Assembly (NCBI RefSeq): GCF_028617075.1
Contig: NZ_JAQKGV010000002.1
Coordinates: 1-64,000 of the forward strand
Direction of reading: 5' to 3'
Source of the DNA: Rubrobacter calidifluminis
Lineage (GTDB): Bacteria; Actinomycetota; Rubrobacteria; Rubrobacterales; Rubrobacteraceae
DNA: 64,000 nt
Below are positions 430 to 12,969 of this stretch, piece by piece. The notes under the pieces were generated by a model. The model made no database searches. It worked only from the letters and a program-made list of their open reading frames with translations, and was not told where the DNA came from. Every line of letters begins with the position of its first letter. Positions within the stretch are counted from its first letter, which is position 1. Made by a program: the position numbers and the translations under genes.

Positions 430-1206
430 TTGGCTGACGAGCTCGAGGCGGCGATCGAGACGGCGAGGGCGGCGGGAGAGGTGCTGCGCGCCGGCTTCGG
501 TAGGGGAGGGAAAGTCCGGTACAAGGGTGAGGTGGATCTGGTCACGGAGACAGACGAGGAGTCGGAGCGTCTGATCAAGGAGGCCCTTCTCGGCGCTTTC
601 CCCGCCTACGGCATGCTGGCCGAGGAGAGCGGCCAGACGGCCGGGGAGGATGAGGCGCGCTGGATCGTCGATCCTCTCGACGGGACGATCAACTTCGCCC
701 ACGACCTGCCCATCTTCGCCGTCTCCATCGCCCTGCAGAGGGGGGACGACCTCGTCCTCGGCGTCGTCTACGATCCTATGAGAGACGAGCTGTTCACCGC
801 CCGGCGTGGCGAAGGAGCCTTCCTGAACGGCAAACCCATCACGCCCACGAAGACCGGCGAGCTCATCCACGCCCTCCTGGCCACCGGTTTTCCCTACGAC
901 AGGAGCGAGCTGCCGGAGGCTCTGGAGTTCTTCGGGCGCTTCGCCTCGCGCACGCGCAGCATCAGGAGGCTGGGCTCCGCCGCCATAGACCTCTGCTACG
1001 TGGCCTGCGGCCGGCTCGACGGCTACTACGAGCGCGGCGTCTGGCCGTGGGACGTGGCGGCCGGGGCCCTGATCCTGGAGGAGGCCGGCGGGCGGGTGAC
1101 GGATTACCGCGGTGATCCACCGGACGTGGAGGACCGGGAGATACTCGCGAGCAACGGACCGCTGCACCAGGGGATGCTCGAGGTCATAGGCAACACCTCC
1201 GGATAA
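430..1206 (+). CDS. Inositol monophosphatase family protein
   Basis: A 258-residue Mg-dependent phosphomonoesterase of the IMPase/SuhB/CysQ superfamily, which usually hydrolyses inositol phosphates, histidinol phosphate or PAP. The metal site is visible: EES at 65-67, DPLDGTINF at 81-89 and the C-terminal WDVAAG motif at 207-212 followed by LEEAGG. Length is typical. The TTG start at 430 follows GGAAGGAG at about 413-420. It stands between the demethylase fragment and an MFS gene on the same strand, with gaps of about 150 and 215 bases. Substrate cannot be decided from sequence; in actinobacteria this family also includes histidinol-phosphatase HisN. Confidence 0.85.
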   Translation: MADELEAAIETARAAGEVLRAGFGRGGKVRYKGEVDLVTETDEESERLIKEALLGAFPAYGMLAEESGQTAGEDEARWIVDPLDGTINFAHDLPIFAVSIALQRGDDLVLGVVYDPMRDELFTARRGEGAFLNGKPITPTKTGELIHALLATGFPYDRSELPEALEFFGRFASRTRSIRRLGSAAIDLCYVACGRLDGYYERGVWPWDVAAGALILEEAGGRVTDYRGDPPDVEDREILASNGPLHQGMLEVIGNTSG

Positions 1207-1420
1207 CCCCAGCCGGCCCCCGGGCCAAAGCTGAAGCGGCCTCTCCTCCGGCGTCCCGTCTCTGGCATACCCGAAAGATATATCTGTAACATCGAACCGG
1301 TATTGGACCTTGGGTGCGTCGGTACCGCAGAATACGAACGTCGGGTGATGTGGGAGGCTCCGGTGTGTGCGCGGTATTCCGCGGGAGTGACGGATCTCAC
1401 CGGGGAGGAAGGAGGATCTC

Positions 1421-2908
1421 ATGGAGACGACCGGCGGACGAACCGCACCCTACCCCGGGTACCGGGGGCTCTGGGTCTGGCTCATGCTCGGGTGGGTGGC
1501 GAGCGGGCTCGACCGCACGATCACCGGCCCGGTCGTGAGCTACATGATCGACAACAAGGTTCCGCTCTTCCAGGGGGTGCAAAATCCCTACGCGCTCGGC
1601 GGGCTGGTCGGAAGCCTGCTCTTCGCCGGGTACGCCCTGATGCAGTTTCCCGGCGGGTATATCGGCGACAGGTTCGGGCACCGTACGGTGGTCGTCATAA
1701 GCATCGTGTGGACCGGGGTGGCCACCGTCCTGAGCGGGCTTGCGACTGCGATACTCGGTCTCGTCGCCCTGCGTGCGATCACCGGGCTCGGTACGGGGAT
1801 GTTCTACTCCAACGACCGCAGCATCATAACCACCCAGACCCCGTTCGAGAAACGCAGCCTCGGCATGGGCGTGGTGATAACAGGGCTCTCCATAGGCATA
1901 ACCCTTGCGTACCTCACCGTCTCTCCGCTGCTCGGCTTCGGATCTTCGGTGTTCGGGACGGGCGGGGCGTGGAGGATGCCATTCATCGTGCTCGGCGTGA
2001 TCGCGCTCCTCATCGGGCTCGGGATGCACCGCTTCTTCAGCGGGCAGGGAGAACCTCACCGCTTCTCCCCGGCATACCCCTCTGCCTTCGGGGCTCTGAT
2101 CGGTTACGCCGTAGCCTTCTTCGTCATCATAATAGCCACCTACTTCTTCGCCATCCGCGCCGGACTGCCGGACTGGGGGGTGGCCGTGATCATAACGGTC
2201 GTGGCCCTGGCCCTCGTGGCTCTGGTCTTCGTCCGGCTGGGCGGGCGGATAGGCCCCGTGCTCTACGACCGCTCGCTGTTCCTGATCTACCTCGCCTTCA
2301 TACCGATACTGTGGAACCTCTGGTTCTTCAGCTTCTGGTCGGTCTCGATCGTCTCGCAGGCGGCCGCCGGCTCCACGTTCCTGCAGGCTGCACTGACCGC
2401 GCTCTTCTTCGGTCTCGCCGGGATAATCGGCTACCCGGCCGGAGGCTGGCTCGCCGACTACACCAAGCGGCGGGGGTGGGGGCGCAAGGGGATGCTCATC
2501 GCCTTCACCTTCATCCAGGGGGTGCTCACCCTCGCCTTCTCCGTCTACGTGGCGAAGGGCGGCGGCGCACTCGCTGCGCTCGGCGCCCTGATCTTCTTCG
2601 CCAGCCTCTTCTTCAACGCCCTCCAGCCGATGGCCCAGGCGCTCGCCGCCGACCTGACGAACCCGGCCTACCTCGGCGCGATGTTCGGGATGATGAACCT
2701 GATCGGCGAGATGGGCGCCATACTCTCCCCGTCCATCAGCGGCGCACTCCGCGACGCCACGGGCAACTGGCACGCCGCCCTCTTCCTGGACACCGCGCTC
2801 ATCTTCTGCGGGTTCATCCTGCTGCTGTTCGTTCGCGAGACCCGCCGGACCCGCAGGGCACCCACGGAGGAGACCTCCAGGGTCTCCGGATACCGAACTC
2901 AGGGCTGA
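1421..2908 (+). CDS. MFS transporter
   Basis: A 495-residue major facilitator superfamily carrier with about twelve hydrophobic segments. The MFS loop 2-3 motif is seen as GYIGDRFGHRTVVV, and a related GGWLADYTKRR stands after the central loop. ATG at 1421 follows GGAGGAAGGAGG. It lies between the IMPase gene and the pobA region on the same strand, so import of an aromatic acid is a reasonable guess, but nothing in the sequence fixes the substrate. Just downstream begins the small conserved ORF at 2935. Confidence 0.85.
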   Translation: METTGGRTAPYPGYRGLWVWLMLGWVASGLDRTITGPVVSYMIDNKVPLFQGVQNPYALGGLVGSLLFAGYALMQFPGGYIGDRFGHRTVVVISIVWTGVATVLSGLATAILGLVALRAITGLGTGMFYSNDRSIITTQTPFEKRSLGMGVVITGLSIGITLAYLTVSPLLGFGSSVFGTGGAWRMPFIVLGVIALLIGLGMHRFFSGQGEPHRFSPAYPSAFGALIGYAVAFFVIIIATYFFAIRAGLPDWGVAVIITVVALALVALVFVRLGGRIGPVLYDRSLFLIYLAFIPILWNLWFFSFWSVSIVSQAAAGSTFLQAALTALFFGLAGIIGYPAGGWLADYTKRRGWGRKGMLIAFTFIQGVLTLAFSVYVAKGGGALAALGALIFFASLFFNALQPMAQALAADLTNPAYLGAMFGMMNLIGEMGAILSPSISGALRDATGNWHAALFLDTALIFCGFILLLFVRETRRTRRAPTEETSRVSGYRTQG

Positions 2909-2934
2909 ACGTCGCAAAGATATACGTCGGCGAT

Positions 2935-3009
2935 ATGGCCAGGTTATATGACAGGTATTTGCGCTATGACTCAGCCGGAGAGATACTGATGCCGAAAGGG
3001 GCGGAGTAG
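2935..3009 (+). CDS. Candidate small leaderless ORF upstream of pobA (24 aa)
   Basis: This ORF begins MARLYDRYLRYD and ends at TAG 3007-3009. A -10-like TATACG (2921-2926) lies exactly 8 bases before the ATG, so an mRNA from it would start at or next to the start codon. The same arrangement, with the same spacing and a related peptide MARTFIRYLCYG, stands upstream of pcaI at 11094. The two DNA stretches align without gaps over about 60 bases, and two arginine codons differ synonymously. It may be a regulatory small protein, a leader peptide, or just the transcribed part of a shared promoter. No known family was recognised. Confidence 0.35.
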   Translation: MARLYDRYLRYDSAGEILMPKGAE

Positions 3010-3170
3010 ACCCGCGCGCCCTGTCGGGCTACGGAAGGAGGAGGGCATGTCTCCCGGAGTCTGGCTCCCGGTCGGGTTGGTTCGCCCGCGGTTTTGAAGG
3101 TGTGTGATTGGGTGCTGCGGTCGAGGCTGGGTGTGGACCTGCGGATGCCGGGGGCACGCGGATACGGTGA

Positions 3171-4427
<1,257 letters not shown>

Positions 4428-4458
4428 ATTTGCCGCCGTTTAGAGGGAAAGGAGAGCG

Positions 4459-5712
4459 ATGATGGAAGAGCGGCAGAGGAGCACATTCTTCCGCTACGAG
4501 AACGCGGTAGTTTTGATGATGTTCTTCGTCTTCGGTTTCGTTTTTATGGAGCGTCTGAGCGTGGTCTACCTTTTCCCGTTCATCGCTCCGGATCTCAAGC
4601 TCAACAACACCGAGATAGGCCTCATCGTCTCTGTGCTGGCGGTCTGCTGGGCCATCTCGGGGTTTGTGTTTGGGTCTTTCTCGGATCTCATCGGCTCGAG
4701 GAAGAAGGTGCTTTTGCCGATCACGCTGGCGTTTTCGCTGTTCTCGTTCCTCTCGGGTCTCGCCAGGAGCTTCATCATGCTGATCGTGGTGAGAGGGCTC
4801 ATGGGCGTCTCCGAGGGGCCGGTGCTGCCGATAGCGCAGGCCAGCGTGATAGCCGAGTCCTCCGAAGAGAGGCGCGGGTTCAATCTGGGCTTCGTGCAGA
4901 GCTCCACGGGGCTCATCGGTTCCACCCTCACACCGATAATCGTCACGGCCATCGCCGTGCACTACTCCTGGCACTACGCGTTCTACCTGGTCGGGGTGCC
5001 GGGGCTGGTTATGTTCTTCGTCCTCTTGAAGTACATGCGCGAGCCCGCGAGGACGGCCGGAGTGGAGGAGCACGGCCGCATCCGAAGGAGCGACTTCGGG
5101 ATGGTCTTCAGAAACCGCAACGTGTGGTTCTGCGTTCTCATCTCGGCGTTCTTCATGACCTGGCTTTTCGCCTTCACCAGCTTCGCGCCGACGTTTCTCA
5201 CCGAAGGGGCGCACTACTCCCCGACGGACATGGGGCTCATCATGGGTGCTGTGGGCTTCGGGACTTTCGTCTGGGGTTTCGTGGGACCTGCTATCTCCGA
5301 CCGGGTGGGCCGGAAGCCCACGCTCATAGCCTTCGCCTTCATAACCACGCTCTCGCCCATATGCCTGGCGCTGATACACGCCCCGGTACAGGAGATGATG
5401 GTGATAGGCTTTCTGACGGCCCTCGGGCAGGGGGCGTTTCCCATCTTCATGGCGATAATCCCCGGTGAGTCGCTGCCCGCGGCCTACGTTGCGACGGCGG
5501 TGGGGCTCACGCAGCTCATAGGGGAGCTCGTGGGCGGGACGGTGGCTCCAACGTTGGCCGGTGTGGCTGCGGACCACTTCGGGATAGCCGCTCCTTTGTG
5601 GATAGCTGCGGGTGGTTCTTTCGTGTGTGCGCTTCTGGCCTTCGGGATAAAGGAGACCGCGCCGGTGCGGGTCGGGCGCCGGGAGGTCTCCGCCGGGAAG
5701 GTTGTGCATTGA
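4459..5712 (+). CDS. MFS transporter downstream of pobA
   Basis: A 417-residue major facilitator carrier with twelve predicted membrane spans. It has the loop 2-3 motif GSFSDLIGSRKKVLLP near residue 73 and a second copy, GPAISDRVGRKPTL, in the C-terminal half. Start ATG 4459 (or 4462) follows GGAAAGGAGAG. It is probably cotranscribed with pobA (31-base gap) and shares TTGA with the cysteine hydrolase after it. Uptake of an aromatic acid or related carboxylate is suggested by position only. Confidence 0.85.
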   Translation: MMEERQRSTFFRYENAVVLMMFFVFGFVFMERLSVVYLFPFIAPDLKLNNTEIGLIVSVLAVCWAISGFVFGSFSDLIGSRKKVLLPITLAFSLFSFLSGLARSFIMLIVVRGLMGVSEGPVLPIAQASVIAESSEERRGFNLGFVQSSTGLIGSTLTPIIVTAIAVHYSWHYAFYLVGVPGLVMFFVLLKYMREPARTAGVEEHGRIRRSDFGMVFRNRNVWFCVLISAFFMTWLFAFTSFAPTFLTEGAHYSPTDMGLIMGAVGFGTFVWGFVGPAISDRVGRKPTLIAFAFITTLSPICLALIHAPVQEMMVIGFLTALGQGAFPIFMAIIPGESLPAAYVATAVGLTQLIGELVGGTVAPTLAGVAADHFGIAAPLWIAAGGSFVCALLAFGIKETAPVRVGRREVSAGKVVH

Positions 5713-6356
5713 GCCGTGGCGTGAAGAGCTCTATCGGGAGCGGGGGACTAGACTGGACCGTGCGTCCGGGAAGCTCCGCCTTGCTCGTGATCGACATGCA
5801 GAACGACTTCGTGCGCGAGGGGGGCGTGATGGAGGTCCCCCTCGCCAGGAAGTGCCTGCCGAACATCCGCCGGTTGGTCGACGCCGCGCGCGACTCGGGC
5901 ATCCCGGTCGTCTTCACCCGGCACGTGCTCTACGACGCCTTCGACGTCTCGCCGCTCGAGGTCGCCCTCCAGCCCCGGCTCAGGAAGGAGGGCATGAGGG
6001 AGGGGAGCCGGGGGGCGCAGGTAGTCGAGGAGCTTCAACCCCGACCGGACGAGTTCGTGGTCAGCAAACACCGCTACGACGCCTTCTACAACACCGACCT
6101 TGAGACCATACTGCGCACCGCGTGGGGGCTGAACGCTGTAGACACCCTGATCATCACCGGCACCGTGACGAACATCTGCTGCGAGAGCACCGCCAGAAGC
6201 GCCTTCATGCGCGACTTCAAGGTCGTCTTCGCGAGCGACGCCAACGGCGGGCTGGACGAGCCCTCGCACGCCGCGACGCTCGAGAGCATCTCGCGCGCGT
6301 TCGGCCGGGTGGCCTCGACCCGGGAGATACTGCAGGAGATCGAATCCTGTATTTGA
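5709..6356 (+). CDS. Cysteine hydrolase, isochorismatase family
   Basis: A 215-residue protein with the isochorismatase/nicotinamidase fold. The triad is visible: Asp29 in LLVIDMQNDF, Lys120 in VVSKHRYDAF and Cys157 in TNICCESTARSA. The TTG start at 5709 overlaps the TGA stop of the MFS gene (TTGA), the junction type used throughout this window; GTG 5721 is an alternative. The TNxCxESTAR segment resembles amidohydrolases acting on carbamates and ureides (RutB, N-carbamoylsarcosine amidase) more than isochorismatase itself, but the substrate is unknown. Coupling to pobA and its carrier suggests an amide or carbamate of an aromatic acid, an inference only. Confidence 0.85.
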   Translation: MSRGVKSSIGSGGLDWTVRPGSSALLVIDMQNDFVREGGVMEVPLARKCLPNIRRLVDAARDSGIPVVFTRHVLYDAFDVSPLEVALQPRLRKEGMREGSRGAQVVEELQPRPDEFVVSKHRYDAFYNTDLETILRTAWGLNAVDTLIITGTVTNICCESTARSAFMRDFKVVFASDANGGLDEPSHAATLESISRAFGRVASTREILQEIESCI

Positions 6357-6901
6357 ACCCGTCTGAATGCCCGAAGCAGGGGGCGGTTGCTTGGTCATCG
6401 TTGTCCTCTGAAATAACGAACCGCGACTTTTATCCCCAAGACACCAACCGATGTGCCAGAGCGAATGAAAACACGCTGGTTGTCTTATTGAGTGCCGGTT
6501 CGCTCATGGTATAAGATAATATCGTTTCTAAATGCCTTCAGTGGAGCGTGGCTTCGTTGAGATAAAAGAACATGGTGGACGAGCGAAGAGATCCCGGGCT
6601 CTATGACTTGCATATACCAACAAAATATATCTAGTAGATGTATTTTGTATTTGACCTATAGCTATGGACCAGGCAGAATACCTGCCACAGTTAGAGCGAG
6701 AGGTAGAGGGGAAGTGGGGAAATCGAGAGGTTCATGAGAAATTCGGCGAAAACGTTTAGTGAGCTGTCTTTGTCACTTTCTAGGCGTGACGCTGGGCCGC
6801 TGAGTTCGTGAGGTTACATGACATTGTTGGGTTGTCTGCAGATGGGTCTTGATAATTCTTTGTAGGTGGACACAGATACGTCGGAGGAAGGAGGAGAAAA
6901 G
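6357..6901. other. 545-bp AT-richer intergenic region upstream of the MHS transporter
   Basis: No convincing gene is seen here. Two short frames, ATG 6571 (20 aa) and ATG 6664 (31 aa), show no family motif. The region is clearly richer in A and T than its surroundings and contains the inverted repeat at 6620-6648. It marks the left edge of a block (6.4-10.4 kb) whose third codon positions are less GC-rich than the pca genes. Confidence 0.5.
6620..6648. promoter_or_regulatory. 29-bp inverted repeat, possible operator
   Basis: The arms acaaaatatatcta and tagatgtattttgt are 14 bases each around a single central base, with one mismatch. It lies about 250 bases before the MHS transporter start. 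Size and symmetry fit a dimeric regulator of GntR, TetR or similar type; none is encoded beside it. Confidence 0.4.
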
Positions 6902-8248
6902 GTGGAGAGGATTGGCGGAGAGGTTGTTCATCCGCCGACGACGATTCGCAAGGTGGCTCTTGCGAGCTTCGTGGGATCCGTCATGGAATGGTACGACTTC
7001 TTCATTTACGGGACGGCTACTGCGCTGGTTCTCGGGAAGTTGTTTTTCCCCAATGCCAGCTCTCTCGTTGGAACGTTGGAGGCCTTTGCCACGTTTGGGG
7101 TAGGTTTTCTCTTCCGGCCTCTGGGAGGAGCGTTTTTCGGACACTTTGGTGACAAGGTGGGACGCAAGGCCATGCTGGTCATCACACTGGGAGTGATGGG
7201 GATTGCGACGGTACTTATCGGTTGTCTTCCGACGTACAGCTCAATAGGCATATGGGCTCCTGTCCTGCTTGTATTACTCCGGTGTTTGCAAGGCTTCTCC
7301 GTTGGAGGAGAGTGGGCTGGTGGAGCGCTGATGGTAATCGAGCACGCGCCCGTAGAACGTAGAGGGTTCTACGGGAGTTGGCCGCAGGTTGGGCCGTCTG
7401 CGGGAACGCTGCTTTCCACCGGTGTGTTTGCCATATTTTCAGGACTTCCTCAGGATCAGTTTCTGTCCTGGGGATGGCGAGTGCCATTCCTGCTGAGCGC
7501 TGTCGTGGTGGCGATCGGGCTCGTGATCCGGCTCAAGATCGCTGAGTCGCCGGTATTCGAGGAGATCAAAGAAGAACACCGTGAGCCGCGGACCCCTCTT
7601 CTGGAGCTTTTCCGTAGCGGTGAAGGCAGAAACGTGCTGCTCATCATGGGTATGCGACTGGCCATAAACACGACCTATTATGGGGCGACAGTCTTCGCAC
7701 TCTCCTATGCAACCGATCAGCTGGGCATCTCCAATACGACGATGCTTGCCTGCATCCTCGTAACCGCCGCGCTGGGATTCGTTAGCAAGCCGATATATGG
7801 GGCGATATCCGACCGTATCGGGCGGCGTCCGATATACCTTGCGGGGGCGGTTGTAGGAGCTCTGATCATTTTCCCCTTCTTCTGGGCGCTGCAGACACGT
7901 TCGGTGATCCTTATATTCCTGGCATTCTTTTTCATCATAAACATCTCCCACGACCTCAATGATGCCGTGGAGTCGTCTTTCTTCTCTGAACTCTTCGGCT
8001 CGAAGGATCGCTACAGCGGGGTTGCGATAGGGCATCAGTTGGGAGGCGCGATCACCGGCTTCACACCACTCATCGCGGGTGCCTTGACTGCTGCGGGGGG
8101 CTGGCCGCTCGCTGCCACATACTTCGTTTTTGCCTGTCTGATCTCTTGTATATGTATCTATGTGACCAGAGAGAATTTCCGTCGTGATCTTACGGAGGCG
8201 GCGGAGCACGAGTCGCGCGGGATCACAGCCAGGCCGAGAGTTCAGTGA
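6902..8248 (+). CDS. MHS-family MFS transporter (metabolite:H+ symporter)
   Basis: A 448-residue carrier of the metabolite:H+ symporter family, whose members import shikimate, alpha-ketoglutarate, citrate, proline/betaine and aromatic acids. Family hallmarks are present: SVMEWYDFFIYG near the N-terminus, FRPLGGAFFGHFGDKVGRK in loop 2-3, LRCLQGFSVGGEWAG in helix 4 and SDRIGRRP in the C-terminal half. GTG 6902 is chosen because AAGGAGGA stands 6 bases before it; the in-frame GTG at 6866 has no ribosome site. A perfect 28-base palindrome follows the stop. The neighbouring dehydrogenase and TIM-barrel genes suggest a shikimate- or quinate-like substrate. Confidence 0.88.
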   Translation: MERIGGEVVHPPTTIRKVALASFVGSVMEWYDFFIYGTATALVLGKLFFPNASSLVGTLEAFATFGVGFLFRPLGGAFFGHFGDKVGRKAMLVITLGVMGIATVLIGCLPTYSSIGIWAPVLLVLLRCLQGFSVGGEWAGGALMVIEHAPVERRGFYGSWPQVGPSAGTLLSTGVFAIFSGLPQDQFLSWGWRVPFLLSAVVVAIGLVIRLKIAESPVFEEIKEEHREPRTPLLELFRSGEGRNVLLIMGMRLAINTTYYGATVFALSYATDQLGISNTTMLACILVTAALGFVSKPIYGAISDRIGRRPIYLAGAVVGALIIFPFFWALQTRSVILIFLAFFFIINISHDLNDAVESSFFSELFGSKDRYSGVAIGHQLGGAITGFTPLIAGALTAAGGWPLAATYFVFACLISCICIYVTRENFRRDLTEAAEHESRGITARPRVQ

Positions 8249-8257
8249 GGAATACCT

Positions 8258-8285
8258 GGAGCGGCCGGAGGCCTCCGGCCGCTCC
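8258..8285 (+). terminator. Terminator-like 28-nt palindrome after the MHS gene
   Basis: A perfect palindrome with arms GGAGCGGCCGGAGG and CCTCCGGCCGCTCC begins 9 bases after the stop codon and is followed by TTCT. There is no long T run, so it may be a weak terminator or a 3'-end stabilising hairpin. Confidence 0.55.
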
Positions 8286-8433
8286 TTCTGACATCTCTCG
8301 GGAGGTCGCATTGATGAACAGTTGCGCCGCAGCTTGACGACATAAGGGAGGACTCCAGTTGTACGAGGCCATGTACTTGACGCTTGGTGGTTGAGGCTGT
8401 GGGTTATGTTCTGAAGAAGTCGAAGGTCAGCCG

Positions 8434-9462
8434 TTGAAGGCTTTCGTGAAGACCGGTCGCCTCTCGGGAGAGGCTGAGGTTACGGATAGACCGATACCCA
8501 CCCCGGGGGCTGGTGAGGTCTTGCTCCGGGTGGCAGCGTGTGGGATATGTGGAAGCGATCTGCACGCTTTCAGGTCTGATCCGGGGTTCGAATGGATCCA
8601 ACCTCCGGTGACGCTGGGCCATGAATTCTCGGGTACCGTTGAGGCGGTTGGGCAGGATGTGCATCTCGTAAGTCCGGGTGATCGAGTCGTTCCTATCGCG
8701 ATACAGGGCTGCGGTAGTTGTGACTTCTGTCGTTCCGGTGTCACGCAGCTCTGTCCGCAGCGCGAGCTCGTCGGACTATCCTGCGACGGGGGAATGGCCG
8801 AGTACGCCGTGGTGCCTGAGTGGCAGCTCGTACCCGTTCCTTCGGAACTCGACCTCGGTTTGGCCGCGCTCTGCGAGCCGCTGGCCGTGGCCGTCCATGC
8901 GGTGTTCACGCGAGCTTGTATAAAGCCGGGCCAGAAAGTGGTGGTGTCGGGACCTGGGCCCATCGGGGTGCTTTGCGGGATGTTGGCCGACCTCGGCGGG
9001 GCGGAGGTTCTTCTGACAGGGGTGGAGCGGGATTCAGCGTGGCGACTGCCTGCTGCAGAACGTGTGGGGCTGGAAACCGCAAACCTCAGCGAGGCGCCGC
9101 TGGAAGCATATTTGCGCGATGGTTTTGGAGGAAACGCTCCAGACTTCTGGATAGAAAGTTCCGGATCCGTCAGAGCGCTCGGCTCGGCGCTGGAATCTGT
9201 GCGGCCGGGAGGAAAGATAATAGTGGTCGGCCTCTATGCTGAGCAGATGTCCTTTTATCCGACTTCGGCGGTGCGCAGGGAGCTTGATGTCGTGTTCAGC
9301 TATAGTTGCAGCTATGCCGACTATCGTACCGCACTGTCTCTTTTGAGTAGTGGTGCCGTGGATCCTGGACCTCTGATCTCCAGATATCCGCTGCGGGATG
9401 CCCGGAAGGCTTTCGAGGTGACTGGTGGGGGACGGGTCGTCAAAGCGATGCTAGTTCCGTGA
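8434..9462 (+). CDS. Zinc-dependent medium-chain dehydrogenase
   Basis: A 342-residue alcohol/polyol dehydrogenase of the MDR superfamily. The catalytic zinc site is Cys39 in CGICGSD and His63-Glu64 in GHE; the structural zinc has Cys93, 96, 99 and 107 (CGSCDFC...C). The nucleotide site is GPGPIG near 174. The pattern resembles sorbitol, threonine and related polyol dehydrogenases. TTG at 8434 is the likely start. With the MHS carrier before it and a TIM-barrel isomerase/dehydratase-like gene after it, it probably oxidises a hydroxyl of an imported polyol or cyclic hydroxy acid. Base composition is less GC-rich than in the pca genes. Confidence 0.85.
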   Translation: MKAFVKTGRLSGEAEVTDRPIPTPGAGEVLLRVAACGICGSDLHAFRSDPGFEWIQPPVTLGHEFSGTVEAVGQDVHLVSPGDRVVPIAIQGCGSCDFCRSGVTQLCPQRELVGLSCDGGMAEYAVVPEWQLVPVPSELDLGLAALCEPLAVAVHAVFTRACIKPGQKVVVSGPGPIGVLCGMLADLGGAEVLLTGVERDSAWRLPAAERVGLETANLSEAPLEAYLRDGFGGNAPDFWIESSGSVRALGSALESVRPGGKIIVVGLYAEQMSFYPTSAVRRELDVVFSYSCSYADYRTALSLLSSGAVDPGPLISRYPLRDARKAFEVTGGGRVVKAMLVP

Positions 9463-9519
9463 TGCCCGATTTGTACGAGTGAACGCGGTGCGTACCGGTA
9501 TGGCACCTGGGAGGAACGA

Positions 9520-10383
9520 ATGAGGCCGAAGCGAGAGGTGGGCATGGACCATCTGACGATGCTGGATGTCTCGCCACCCGAACTTGTGGTCATCGCAGCA
9601 AAGGCCGGATTCGATTGTGTCGGTCTGCGTGTTTCTGCGGCGGGTCCGGAAGAGAAACCCTGGCCCATGAAGCAGGGGTCGCCCATGTTAGAAGAGACCC
9701 TACGTCTGCTGAAGGATACGGGCATCCGGGTTCTCGATGTCGAGGTGTTGCGTATCGGCCCCGAAACGACCCTTGACGACTACGAGCATATCCTTGAGAC
9801 AGGAGCCCTTCTCGGAGCTCGGTATCTCACCGTCAACAGCGACGATCCAGACCTTGAGCGAGCCTCCGAGACGTTCGCTGTCCTGAGTTCCAACGCACGT
9901 TCCTACGGCCTGCGTCCATTGATCGAGCCGATCCCCTACACCAGAGTCTCGAACCTCAAGGATGCAATACACATAGCACGGAGATCCGGAGGTGGAGGGA
10001 TACTGCTGGACTGTCTGCATTTCCAGCGCTACGGCGGCGACCTCGGAATGCTGCGTGCGCTGGATCCGCAGTTGTTCTCCTACCTGCAGTTGTGCGATGC
10101 TCCACTGTCTCCTCCCACCGGCTTGCCACGGCCTCAGAGACTTCCACGCGGACAGTCGACCGATGGTACCGATCTGCAACTTGAGAGTCGGGCTCTGCGT
10201 CTGTTGCCGGGGGAAGGTGAATTGCCATTGAGAGAGATCCTTGAGTCTCTACCTCCAGAGATGCCAGTCAGCGTCGAAGCCCCGAATATGGAGCTGCGGA
10301 AAACCTTGACCCCGGTGGAGTTCGCTCGCAGGGCATGGCAGGCAGTAGATGAGCTACTTCACCAAGGCCTGGATGTAGGTTGA
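9520..10383 (+). CDS. TIM-barrel sugar phosphate isomerase/epimerase-like protein
   Basis: A 287-residue protein of the xylose isomerase-like TIM barrel (AP endonuclease 2) superfamily. It has metal-ligand-type strands: LIEPIPY (Glu), GILLDCLHFQRYGGD (Asp and His), SYLQLCDAP (Asp) and PVSVEAPN (Glu) at the C-terminal ends of strands. Members include hydroxypyruvate isomerases, inosose dehydratases and 3-dehydroshikimate dehydratases. Because it follows an MHS carrier and a dehydrogenase and precedes the protocatechuate operon, a dehydroshikimate dehydratase making protocatechuate is an attractive guess; the sequence alone does not prove it. It ends 4 bases from the oppositely oriented gene at 10387. 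Confidence 0.8.
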   Translation: MRPKREVGMDHLTMLDVSPPELVVIAAKAGFDCVGLRVSAAGPEEKPWPMKQGSPMLEETLRLLKDTGIRVLDVEVLRIGPETTLDDYEHILETGALLGARYLTVNSDDPDLERASETFAVLSSNARSYGLRPLIEPIPYTRVSNLKDAIHIARRSGGGGILLDCLHFQRYGGDLGMLRALDPQLFSYLQLCDAPLSPPTGLPRPQRLPRGQSTDGTDLQLESRALRLLPGEGELPLREILESLPPEMPVSVEAPNMELRKTLTPVEFARRAWQAVDELLHQGLDVG

Positions 10384-10386
10384 CGC

Positions 10387-11022
10387 TTAGCGCTCTGCTT
10401 CGGGTCGATCTTTGCGGGAACGACTCTTCACGTATTCGAGGATCTGATCCCGTAATCCGGCCTCGAGGGCTTGCGTTAATTTCGGAGCAGACCCGCAGAT
10501 CACCATCCCCTCTGGAATCGCCACGGTGAGCATGGGGGTGCTGGTCTCCCCATGATACATGTACCCGGATCTGCCCCGGCCCTTCGTCGTGAGGATGTTG
10601 CCCAGGGAATCAGCAGACAGAGGGGTGGACCATTCGAACGGTATCACTCTCGCGAAGACCAGATATTCGGCAAAGGCGAAGTGTGCCGGCATCTCCACAC
10701 TCGGGTGCGCACTCTCCCGCTCGAAGAGCCCTTCAAACCGGCTCGTGAACTCCTCTACGTTTTCGGACACCAGGCAGGCCGCCAGGCTGTGCGTGACGCG
10801 GCCGAGTGGGATGTCCGCCAGCCACAGCAAACCCAGCCTTTCCGGGAGGGGATCAGGATCCTGGTAAAGATAAGAGTTTCCTCCGAGAGACCTGGAAGGC
10901 ACGACGATGAAATGCGCCGAGAGACCACTGCCATTGTCTGCAATCGTGGTCTCATATACCTGTGAGAGGTCGAGCGACGTTCCGAATCCGTACCAGTAAT
11001 CCATGTCCGACGAGTATGTCAT
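10387..11022 (-). CDS. Hypothetical protein between the TIM-barrel gene and the pca operon
   Basis: A 211-residue soluble-looking protein with no motif I recognise. It has Asp, Tyr and Gly near the start (MDYWYGFGTSLDL), a central acidic stretch and a basic tail (KSRSRKDRPEAER). The frame stays open upstream to ATG 11106, but that longer form would run through the pca promoter element on the other strand; ATG 11022 is preferred, with weak ribosome-site support. It is convergent with the TIM-barrel gene and divergent from pcaI. Composition matches the AT-richer block to its left. A regulator or small enzyme cannot be distinguished. Confidence 0.55.
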   Translation of the reverse strand: MTYSSDMDYWYGFGTSLDLSQVYETTIADNGSGLSAHFIVVPSRSLGGNSYLYQDPDPLPERLGLLWLADIPLGRVTHSLAACLVSENVEEFTSRFEGLFERESAHPSVEMPAHFAFAEYLVFARVIPFEWSTPLSADSLGNILTTKGRGRSGYMYHGETSTPMLTVAIPEGMVICGSAPKLTQALEAGLRDQILEYVKSRSRKDRPEAER

Positions 11023-11074
11023 ATTCCAGTCCCGCGTTTCAACGCTTTCTGTTCGTGGGGATGCGGATCTCGAT

Positions 11075-11130
11075 AAAGGTATACTCACAGCATATGGCCA
11101 GAACATTCATTCGGTATTTGTGTTATGGCT
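11075..11130 (+). promoter_or_regulatory. pca operon promoter element shared with the pobA region
   Basis: Blocks AAAGGTATAC (11075-11084), ATATGGCCAG (11092-11101) and GGTATTTG followed by TGTTATGGCT (11113-11130) match 2916-2925, 2933-2942 and 2954-2972 upstream of pobA in the same order and spacing, without gaps. TATACT at 11080-11085 is a good -10 hexamer. The conservation suggests joint control of the two transcription units. Confidence 0.55.
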
Positions 11131-11285
11131 TGTCGGCTGACAAAATGGTAAACAGAGGTGGAGAGTGGGATCTCGAAATCCACGCGAGTCGAGAGAACGA
11201 CCCCGTCAGGGGTTTCTGGCGCAAGGCTGGACAGGGGGATACGCCGGGCGATCTGATACAGCTGAAAGGCAGAAACAAGGAATAA
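11094..11285 (+). CDS. Candidate small leaderless ORF upstream of pcaI (63 aa)
   Basis: The frame begins MARTFIRYLCYG 8 bases after TATACT and ends at 11285, 20 bases before pcaI. Its first dozen codons match the small ORF at 2935 (MARLYDRYLRYD), with synonymous changes at two Arg codons and conserved Arg-Tyr-Leu-x-Tyr. The rest is charged and of no known family. It may encode a small regulatory protein or leader peptide of the pca operon; chance conservation of a promoter is the alternative. Confidence 0.35.
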   Translation: MARTFIRYLCYGLSADKMVNRGGEWDLEIHASRENDPVRGFWRKAGQGDTPGDLIQLKGRNKE

Positions 11286-11305
11286 TAGATTGATGGAGAT
11301 TCACG

Positions 11306-12166
11306 GTGGATAAGATAGCAGCTCTTGGTGAAGCCATCTCCTCCCTGATCTCGGACGGGGATTCGGTCGCGCTGGAGGGGTTCACGCACCTGATACCCTT
11401 CGCCGCCGCCCACGAGATCATCCGCCAGCAAAAGAAGGACCTCACCCTGATCAGGATGACCCCCGACCTCGTCTACGACCAGATGATCGGGATGGGGTGC
11501 GCGGGGAAGCTCATCTTCAGCTGGGGCGGCAACCCCGGGGTGGGCTCGCTGCACCGCTTCCGGGACGCGGTGGAGAATGGCTGGCCCTGCCCCCTGGAGA
11601 TAGAGGAGCACTCCCACGCGGGGATGGCGAACCGCTACGTGGCCGGCGCCTCCCGCCTTCCCTTCGCCGTTCTGCGGGGCTACAAGGGTACGGACCTCTC
11701 CCGGGTCACCGAGACGATAGCCCCCATAGAGTGTCCGTTCACCGGGGAAGAGCTCGTGGCGGTGCCGGCCATAAACCCGGACGTCGCCGTGATCCACGCC
11801 CAGCAGTCGGATAGAAAGGGCAACGTGGCCCTCTGGGGGATAGTCGGCATCCAGAAGGAGGCCGCGCTCTCGGCGGAGAGGGTGATCGTCACGGTGGAGG
11901 AGGTCGTCGACGAGATAGAGCCGCATCACTTCCAGACGGTGATCCCGCACGTTGCCGTAGACGCGGTGTGCGTGGTCCCGAGGGGGGCCTACCCATCCTA
12001 CGCCCACGGCTACTACGACCGCGACAACACCTTCTACGAGGCGTGGGACGGGATAAGCCGTGACAGGGAGACCTTCATGGAGTGGATGGAACGCCACGTG
12101 ATGGGGGTCGAAGACTACGCCTCCCACCTGAAGAGCATAGAAAAGGAGGGGATCGTCTCCCGATGA
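11306..12166 (+). CDS. pcaI: 3-Oxoadipate CoA-transferase, alpha subunit
   Basis: First gene of the pca operon. The 286-residue subunit belongs to CoA transferase family I and, with the next gene product, moves CoA from succinyl-CoA to 3-oxoadipate. It has the glycine-rich N-terminal segment GDSVALEGFTHLIPFAAAHEII and a conserved SWGGNPGVGSLHRF region. It is longer than the roughly 230-residue PcaI of pseudomonads and resembles the actinobacterial and glutaconate-CoA-transferase-like form. GTG 11306 is the start. The stop overlaps the ATG of the beta subunit (ATGA). A different short-chain acid substrate is possible, but the context makes 3-oxoadipate by far the likeliest. Confidence 0.88.
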   Translation: MDKIAALGEAISSLISDGDSVALEGFTHLIPFAAAHEIIRQQKKDLTLIRMTPDLVYDQMIGMGCAGKLIFSWGGNPGVGSLHRFRDAVENGWPCPLEIEEHSHAGMANRYVAGASRLPFAVLRGYKGTDLSRVTETIAPIECPFTGEELVAVPAINPDVAVIHAQQSDRKGNVALWGIVGIQKEAALSAERVIVTVEEVVDEIEPHHFQTVIPHVAVDAVCVVPRGAYPSYAHGYYDRDNTFYEAWDGISRDRETFMEWMERHVMGVEDYASHLKSIEKEGIVSR

Positions 12167-12969
12167 GAAGCCATCAGGAAGAAAAGTCCTCCCGGATGGA
12201 CTACGCGGCGGACGAGATGATGTCCATCGCCGCCGCGAGGGAGCTCAGAGATGGGGTGCTGTGCTTCGTCGGGATAGGGCTGCCCTCCGAGGCCGCGAAC
12301 CTGGCCAGGAAGACCCACGCCCCCAACTGCATGCTCATCTACGAGTCCGGGACCATAGGGGCAAAACCCGAGGTGTTGCCGCTCAGCATAGGAGACGGGG
12401 AGCTCGCCGAGCACGCGGACTCGGTGGTCACGGTGCCGGAGATCTTCAACTACTGGTTGCAGGGCGGTCGCATAGACGTGGGGTTCCTGGGCGCGGCCCA
12501 GATAGACCGCTACGCCAACATAAACACCACCGTCATAGGCGACTACCAGAAGCCCAAAGTGAGGCTGCCCGGGGCCGGGGGCGCACCCGAGATAGCCGCC
12601 TCGGCGAAAGAGGTGATCATAATCCTGAGGCACAAGAGGCGCGCCTTCGTCGAGAACCTGGACTTCCTCACCTCCGTCGGGCACTACAAGGGCGGGAAGT
12701 CCAGAGAAGGGCTCGGCTACACCGGGGCGGGCCCCACCATGGTCATAACCGACCTCGGCATCCTGAGGCCCCGGGAGGAGAGCAGGGAGCTCGAGCTCGT
12801 CGCCGTCCACCCCGGCGTGGAGGTCGATCAGGTGAGAGAGCAGACCGGCTGGGATCTCGCCGTCTCCGACGACCTGAAGACCACCGCTCCTCCCACCGAA
12901 GAGGAGCTTGGGGTCCTGCGCGAGCTCAGGAGGAAGACCGAGGCGGCGAGGAAAGAAGGAGCGGGATGA
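12163..12969 (+). CDS. pcaJ: 3-Oxoadipate CoA-transferase, beta subunit
   Basis: The 268-residue partner of PcaI. ATG 12163 overlaps the pcaI stop. The catalytic glutamate segment of family I CoA transferases is visible as LIYESGTIG (Glu in ESG), preceded by GIGLPSEAANLA. The following GGRIDVGFLGAAQID and GAGGAPEIA segments are also typical. It completes the heteromer that forms 3-oxoadipyl-CoA for the thiolase encoded next. The C-terminal 30 residues are a charged helix. Confidence 0.9.
   Translation: MRSHQEEKSSRMDYAADEMMSIAAARELRDGVLCFVGIGLPSEAANLARKTHAPNCMLIYESGTIGAKPEVLPLSIGDGELAEHADSVVTVPEIFNYWLQGGRIDVGFLGAAQIDRYANINTTVIGDYQKPKVRLPGAGGAPEIAASAKEVIIILRHKRRAFVENLDFLTSVGHYKGGKSREGLGYTGAGPTMVITDLGILRPREESRELELVAVHPGVEVDQVREQTGWDLAVSDDLKTTAPPTEEELGVLRELRRKTEAARKEGAG

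Follow-up and report, generated by a model that had tools for sequence, protein, structure and literature searches.

Operators read by LysR-type regulators (LTTRs) standardly combine a distal high-affinity site with a weaker proximal one (PMC5002191; PMC12609908). For CatM and BenM, which act in aromatic-acid catabolism at PbenA and PcatB of Acinetobacter baylyi, site 1 is ATAC-N7-GTAT, with T-N11-A within it, and is accompanied by weaker further sites (PMC6628147). Protocatechuate genes of rhizobia and Agrobacterium are likewise under LysR-type control, by PcaQ, whose site in S. meliloti is ATAaccgggggatTAT (PMC5002191) and which in A. tumefaciens does not control pcaIJ (PMC12285266). Several model bacteria place their pob/pca genes under IclR- or AraC-type regulators (PMC12285266). 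IclR-type PobR, PcaU and PcaR and an AraC-type PobR belong to other protein families and have other operators.

We analyzed a window of 64,000 nucleotides from Rubrobacter calidifluminis (positions 1 to 64,000 of contig NZ_JAQKGV010000002.1), in which an earlier note, made from the letters alone, had aligned two stretches lying in front of pobA and pcaI. This ungapped match is real, with 34 of 53 positions identical between 2916-2968 and 11075-11127 (36/57 when the longer span 2916-2972 is compared with the pcaI copy), and its three conserved blocks, AAAGRTATAC, ATATGGCCAG and GGTATTTGYGYTATG, were found where they had been placed. When combined into one pattern, the blocks matched the window only at 2916 and 11075 and gave no match in shuffled sequences, and these two positions were also the only matches in the whole genome of about 3.1 Mb (3.09 Mb). 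The best of the remaining 53-mers of the window shared 28 of 53 positions. The repeat is above chance, and a blastn search of a plasmid collection returned no match.

Loci carrying pobA and pcaI-like genes were collected by protein searches from 39 Rubrobacteraceae genomes and aligned as a footprint anchored on GGTATTTGCGCTATGG. The two remaining genomes of the genus, G026 and G027, also have the aligned element in front of pobA; it recurs before pcaI in G016, G029 and G031, and G014, G015 and G028 have a weaker form. The footprint kept TATAY-N7-RTATR and, at a fixed distance from it, GTATTTG, with an AT-rich hexamer lying 17 bp beyond; the block ATATGGCCAG, which had been emphasized at first, was not conserved in the relatives (ATATATCT, GTATGCAT and others). 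Over the 39 genomes, the resulting grammar reads YATAY-N7-RTATR-N17-GTATTKG, with a sigma70-like -35 followed by N17-18 and a -10 CARAAT. A search with YATAY-N7-RTATR-N17-GTATTKG, allowing up to one mismatch and with the reversed pattern as control, yielded exactly five matches in the R. calidifluminis genome, all of them exact, versus none for the control, and 41 versus 4 in the 39 family genomes. Alignment of the 23 distinct exact sites revealed conservation outside the search pattern at positions 41 (A/C), 44-46 (TAT) and 61-66 (CARAAT). Since the -10 (positions 61-66) and the stretch just after the -35 had not been searched for, their conservation supports reading the element as an operator joined to a promoter.

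The sites, promoter hexamers, putative ORFs and downstream genes located below in the window lie on the plus strand. The recognition dyad of the pobA element, TATAC-N7-ATATG (YATAY-N7-RTATR), occupies 2921-2937 and is centred at about -65; it is followed by a second, degenerate site, TTAT-N7-GTAT (2944-2958), which emerged from the 23-site alignment and is likely an activation-binding site beside the -35. The promoter consists of a -35 TTGCGC (2959-2964) and, after a 17-bp spacer, a -10 GATACT (2982-2987) that is identical in G026 and G027, with a predicted start near 2994. In the pcaI element, the same dyad lies at 11080-11096, a second site ACAT-N7-GTAT, presumably of the same role, at 11103-11117, the -35 TTGTGT at 11118-11123 and the -10 CAAAAT, again with a 17-bp spacer, at 11141-11146 (predicted start near 11153). 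Two further copies in the window, as well as a fifth beside a LysR gene on another contig, were absent from the earlier note, as was the conserved -35/-10 pair immediately 3' of the stretch that it had marked. The third copy (1266-1333) comprises a CATAC-N7-ATATA dyad, GTATTGGACC and a -10 CAGAAT at 1328-1333, and is kept in G026 and G027; the fourth (6613-6679) comprises TATAC-N7-ATATA, GTATTTGACC and a -10 CAGAAT at 6674-6679. Promoters of the set carry TTGyGy, TTGGAC or TTGACC as -35 and CARAAT as -10, GATACT being the form at pobA.

An interrupted dyad with T-N11-A inside (ATAC-N7-GTAT), in the form YATAY-N7-RTATR, was found in all five sites of the genome and in the relatives. Its centre lies about 65 bp upstream of the predicted transcription start, and the second site closes with GTAT at the edge of the -35, a layout of LysR type. 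We also considered the GTATAC blocks as direct repeats with 13-bp spacing, and rejected this in favour of an inverted repeat, which agrees with a dyad of LysR type as well as with the TATAC-N7-GTATA-like, more symmetric dyads present at G014, G015 and L183.

These results also bear on what had been read as coding sequence. The TATAC block does lie eight bases 5' of an ATG that opens, at both copies, the peptides described, but it belongs to the LysR dyad, as its left half, and is not a -10 hexamer, the conserved -10 being located about 47 bp past the ATG. The putative ORFs MARLYDRYLRYDSAGEILMPKGAE (2935-3009) and MARTFIRYLCYG... (11094-11285) had raised the idea that the element is translated into leader peptides or conserved leaderless small proteins (MAR...RYL.Y). 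We consider this hardly credible and reject both ORFs as coding, even though three peptides, those of the two copies and of the G026 pobA element, resemble each other in frame and a 24-codon frame is common to the pobA copy and G026. At the position of the start codon, 17 of the 23 exact sites have ATA and six have ATG, and several frames are closed, so that homologous loci keep the DNA grammar and lose the start codon or frame, an outcome that the earlier note had itself named as refuting the peptides. Differences between the two copies are spread 4/4/4 over codon positions 1/2/3 in the first 12 codons, and those between the pobA elements of R. calidifluminis and G026 are 5/3/1 over 22 codons; neither comparison shows third-position bias. 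The residues RYLRY arise from GGTATTTGCGCTAT at a fixed distance, that is, from DNA whose conservation is set by spacing. Finally, the predicted transcription start comes about 59 bp after the ATG, and the conserved promoter would start transcripts 3' of that codon. Of the two interpretations put forward in the earlier note, the peptide one therefore fell, whereas an operator shared by 4-hydroxybenzoate and protocatechuate genes gained strong support and was widened to five sites with a candidate regulator.

A structured RNA leader was rejected as well, as a search of 1200-11400 against Rfam at gathering score gave no match and the leader folds were unremarkable (z of 0.30 for pobA and -1.69 for pcaI). 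As regards the pobA leader itself (2979-3090), its first 70 nt or so are near-identical in three genomes and include a small GC hairpin and AAGGAGGAG, which is strongly Shine-Dalgarno-like; a 16-codon ORF (MSPGVWLPVGLVRPRF / MSPGIWLSVRLVRPRF) is also present there in two of these genomes. The start codon of pobA appears to be ATA (3197-3199), and likewise in G026 (L078) and G027 (L072), because a TGA is found shortly before it and no in-frame ATG, GTG or TTG occurs ahead of the GxGxxG FAD motif. ATACGCAC at the pobA start is common to all three genomes, and L035, a relative from another genus, has GTG at this position.

The sites at 1266, 2921, 6613 and 11080 precede, respectively, an MFS transporter gene (1421-2908), pobA (3197-4427, with an inferred ATA start; 4-hydroxybenzoate 3-monooxygenase, NF006091, 558 bits against a cut-off of 351), a second MFS gene encoding a metabolite/H+ symporter (6866-8248) and a gene for a pcaI-like CoA-transferase subunit (11306-12166, PF01144), which heads a pcaI-J-F-H-G-B-D run. 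The fifth site, on contig G000:C24, is flanked by a LysR gene and, divergent from it, a benzoylformate-decarboxylase gene. For the 6866-8248 symporter, relatives in G005 and G014 have the site too, and the targets in related genomes are pcaI, pcaH, MFS genes, benzoylformate decarboxylase, a Peripla_BP_6 binding protein, TctC-type receptors and unclassified proteins.

Several side observations concern these surroundings. The pcaI/pcaJ-like subunits encoded at 11306-12969 score far under the cut-offs of the NCBIfam pcaI and pcaJ families (38 versus 128.5 and 51.5 versus 243.6 bits) and represent a divergent branch. Divergent from the pcaI element, on the minus strand, lies a gene (10387-11022) for a conserved protein of no known function, whose product has no Pfam or NCBIfam match; it may belong to the regulon, as it has homologues adjoining LysR sites in G002, G003 and G006. 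The block at 6360-11070, between an isochorismatase gene and pcaI, holds the MFS gene at 6866, a zinc-dependent dehydrogenase gene at 8434, a TIM-barrel gene at 9520 and the gene at 10387. G027 has pcaI directly after the isochorismatase gene and no clear LysR site at pcaI, which could there be read from the pobA promoter. An exact LysR site also precedes a large protein (MVTEPERLEGFPSPF...GWEEMYPPWALFDERRREHDENRLWFWNSMHFPVPM) at L146 and L147 (G014 and G015), the first 420 residues of which have no Pfam match.

The candidate LTTR is encoded at G000:C24:25440-26354 and belongs to the LysR family, its PF00126 (HTH_1, 96.2 bits) and PF03466 (LysR_substrate, 159.6 bits) domains both scoring above cut-off. 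Its relatives in the PDB include BenM, CatM and CbnR, BenM/CatM matching with E of about 1e-43. The best LysR matches of G016, G014 and G012 immediately adjoin the element, or the place it would occupy, and diverge from pcaI, and the orthologues form one family with 64-75% identity (98% within the genus). Next to the site, they diverge directly from pcaI in G016 and G012, from pcaH in G005 and G011, and from an MFS gene in G007, an arrangement matched by the LTTR/benzoylformate-decarboxylase pair on C24. As this genus shows no linkage between pob/pca and the LTTR gene, which has the same site in its own upstream region, its identity as the regulator rests on orthology and on this adjacent site. 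Counting the LTTR as present at about 400 bits or more and the site at no more than one mismatch, we found the site in 14 of 14 genomes bearing the LTTR versus 4 of 25 without it, several of these sites being weak (Fisher p = 2e-7, uncorrected for relatedness and shared ancestry). One genome with an exact site in which the LTTR was not found, G029, is 77% complete and in 710 contigs.

Outside the Rubrobacteraceae, the same site accompanies LTTR homologues, beside their own start, in Cyanobacteria, in Chloroflexi and in another actinobacterium. Among homologues of at least about 47% identity, nine of 17 had the site within one mismatch, compared with none for the reversed pattern and none on the other strand; discounting L185, whose site sequence is common with G005, leaves 8/16. 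The site was found in none of 60 more distant homologues.

These distributions help to judge whether the same operator-promoter might answer to another regulator, either an IclR-type protein like PobR, PcaU or PcaR or a different LTTR of the genome. IclR- or AraC-type regulators control pob/pca genes in several model bacteria, and the R. calidifluminis genome encodes seven IclR_C proteins; it also has six HTH_1 matches, and its other LTTRs could in principle read similar dyads. Nevertheless, the IclR genes are on other contigs and none was found linked to the element, whereas in several genomes it is the orthologous LTTR, and no IclR gene, that lies physically beside the site. Site presence moreover tracks this LTTR across genomes, the dyad is of the LTTR ATAC-N7-GTAT type, and the same site accompanies LTTR homologues in other phyla. 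Control by another regulator is accordingly quite improbable in our view.

We therefore favour, with a probability of roughly 0.88 on sequence grounds, the reading that each element is the operator-promoter for one LTTR of the CatM/BenM/AlsR branch, the one encoded on C24. One LTTR dimer would occupy the dyad YATAY-N7-RTATR, the RBS at about -65, while another would bind the ABS, the weaker site with the conserved GTAT at its end and its centre at about -43, giving presumed tetramer contacts at both. An aromatic effector, the putative inducer, would shift the second dimer and so recruit RNA polymerase to the weak TTGyGy-N17-CARAAT promoter. The expected outcome would be co-induction of two MFS genes for uptake, pobA for 4-hydroxybenzoate hydroxylation, pcaIJFHGB-D for the protocatechuate branch, and benzoylformate decarboxylase; the site beside the start codon of the LTTR would also provide for autoregulation. 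The direction of regulation could be the opposite, with the LTTR repressing these promoters and an aromatic ligand relieving repression. Some LTTRs do repress, and a site near the LTTR start codon in many genomes would fit autorepression. We nonetheless rate repression as unlikely, as an RBS centred at about -65, a GTAT beside a poor -35 and a weak promoter correspond to the architecture of catabolic LTTR activators.

Set against the described systems, the element would thus appear to work like a CatM/BenM-type operator without being the CatM, BenM or PcaQ system itself. Its targets are pob, pca, transporter and benzoylformate-decarboxylase genes and not ben/cat, and a characteristic GTATTKG lies at the -35. 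The LTTR scores far under the NCBIfam cut-offs for CatM/BenM (159.3 versus 580 and 150.4 versus 600) and passes none of the NCBIfam cut-offs shown. PcaQ is set apart by its TIGR02424 score (128.5 bits against a cut-off of 303.8) and by the control here of a run headed by pcaIJF, with pobA included; PobR, PcaU and PcaR differ in that the regulator linked here is of LysR type. The best NCBIfam score of the LTTR was to AlsR, the regulator of acetoin biosynthesis and hence of another pathway (295 bits, below the cut-off of 430).

The type of site is thus of a known kind, and the Rubrobacteraceae regulon seems to be undescribed; a literature search found no paper on LysR-type regulation of protocatechuate genes in Rubrobacter. 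What had been an odd repeat becomes a predicted regulon with a regulator gene, an operator grammar found at five places and a question as to its inducer, and it illustrates that an operator of fixed layout can pass for a conserved micropeptide. The site would also be a handle for aromatic-acid sensors in thermophiles. The close relative G026 has both the pobA element and the LTTR/decarboxylase element, and a Rubrobacter MAG, MB2.74, has been reported as 13C-enriched from labelled lignin (PMC9296663). It is an even chance, in our estimation, that one LTTR with a strict, phylum-crossing grammar (YATAY-N7-RTATR-N17-GTATTKG...CARAAT) serves many Rubrobacteraceae as the single master switch for catabolizing lignin-derived aromatic acids, from uptake through the peripheral to the central steps, in place of the separate PobR/PcaU/PcaR-type regulators of model bacteria, and that Cyanobacteria and Chloroflexi have put the same pair of regulator and site to use in other pathways.
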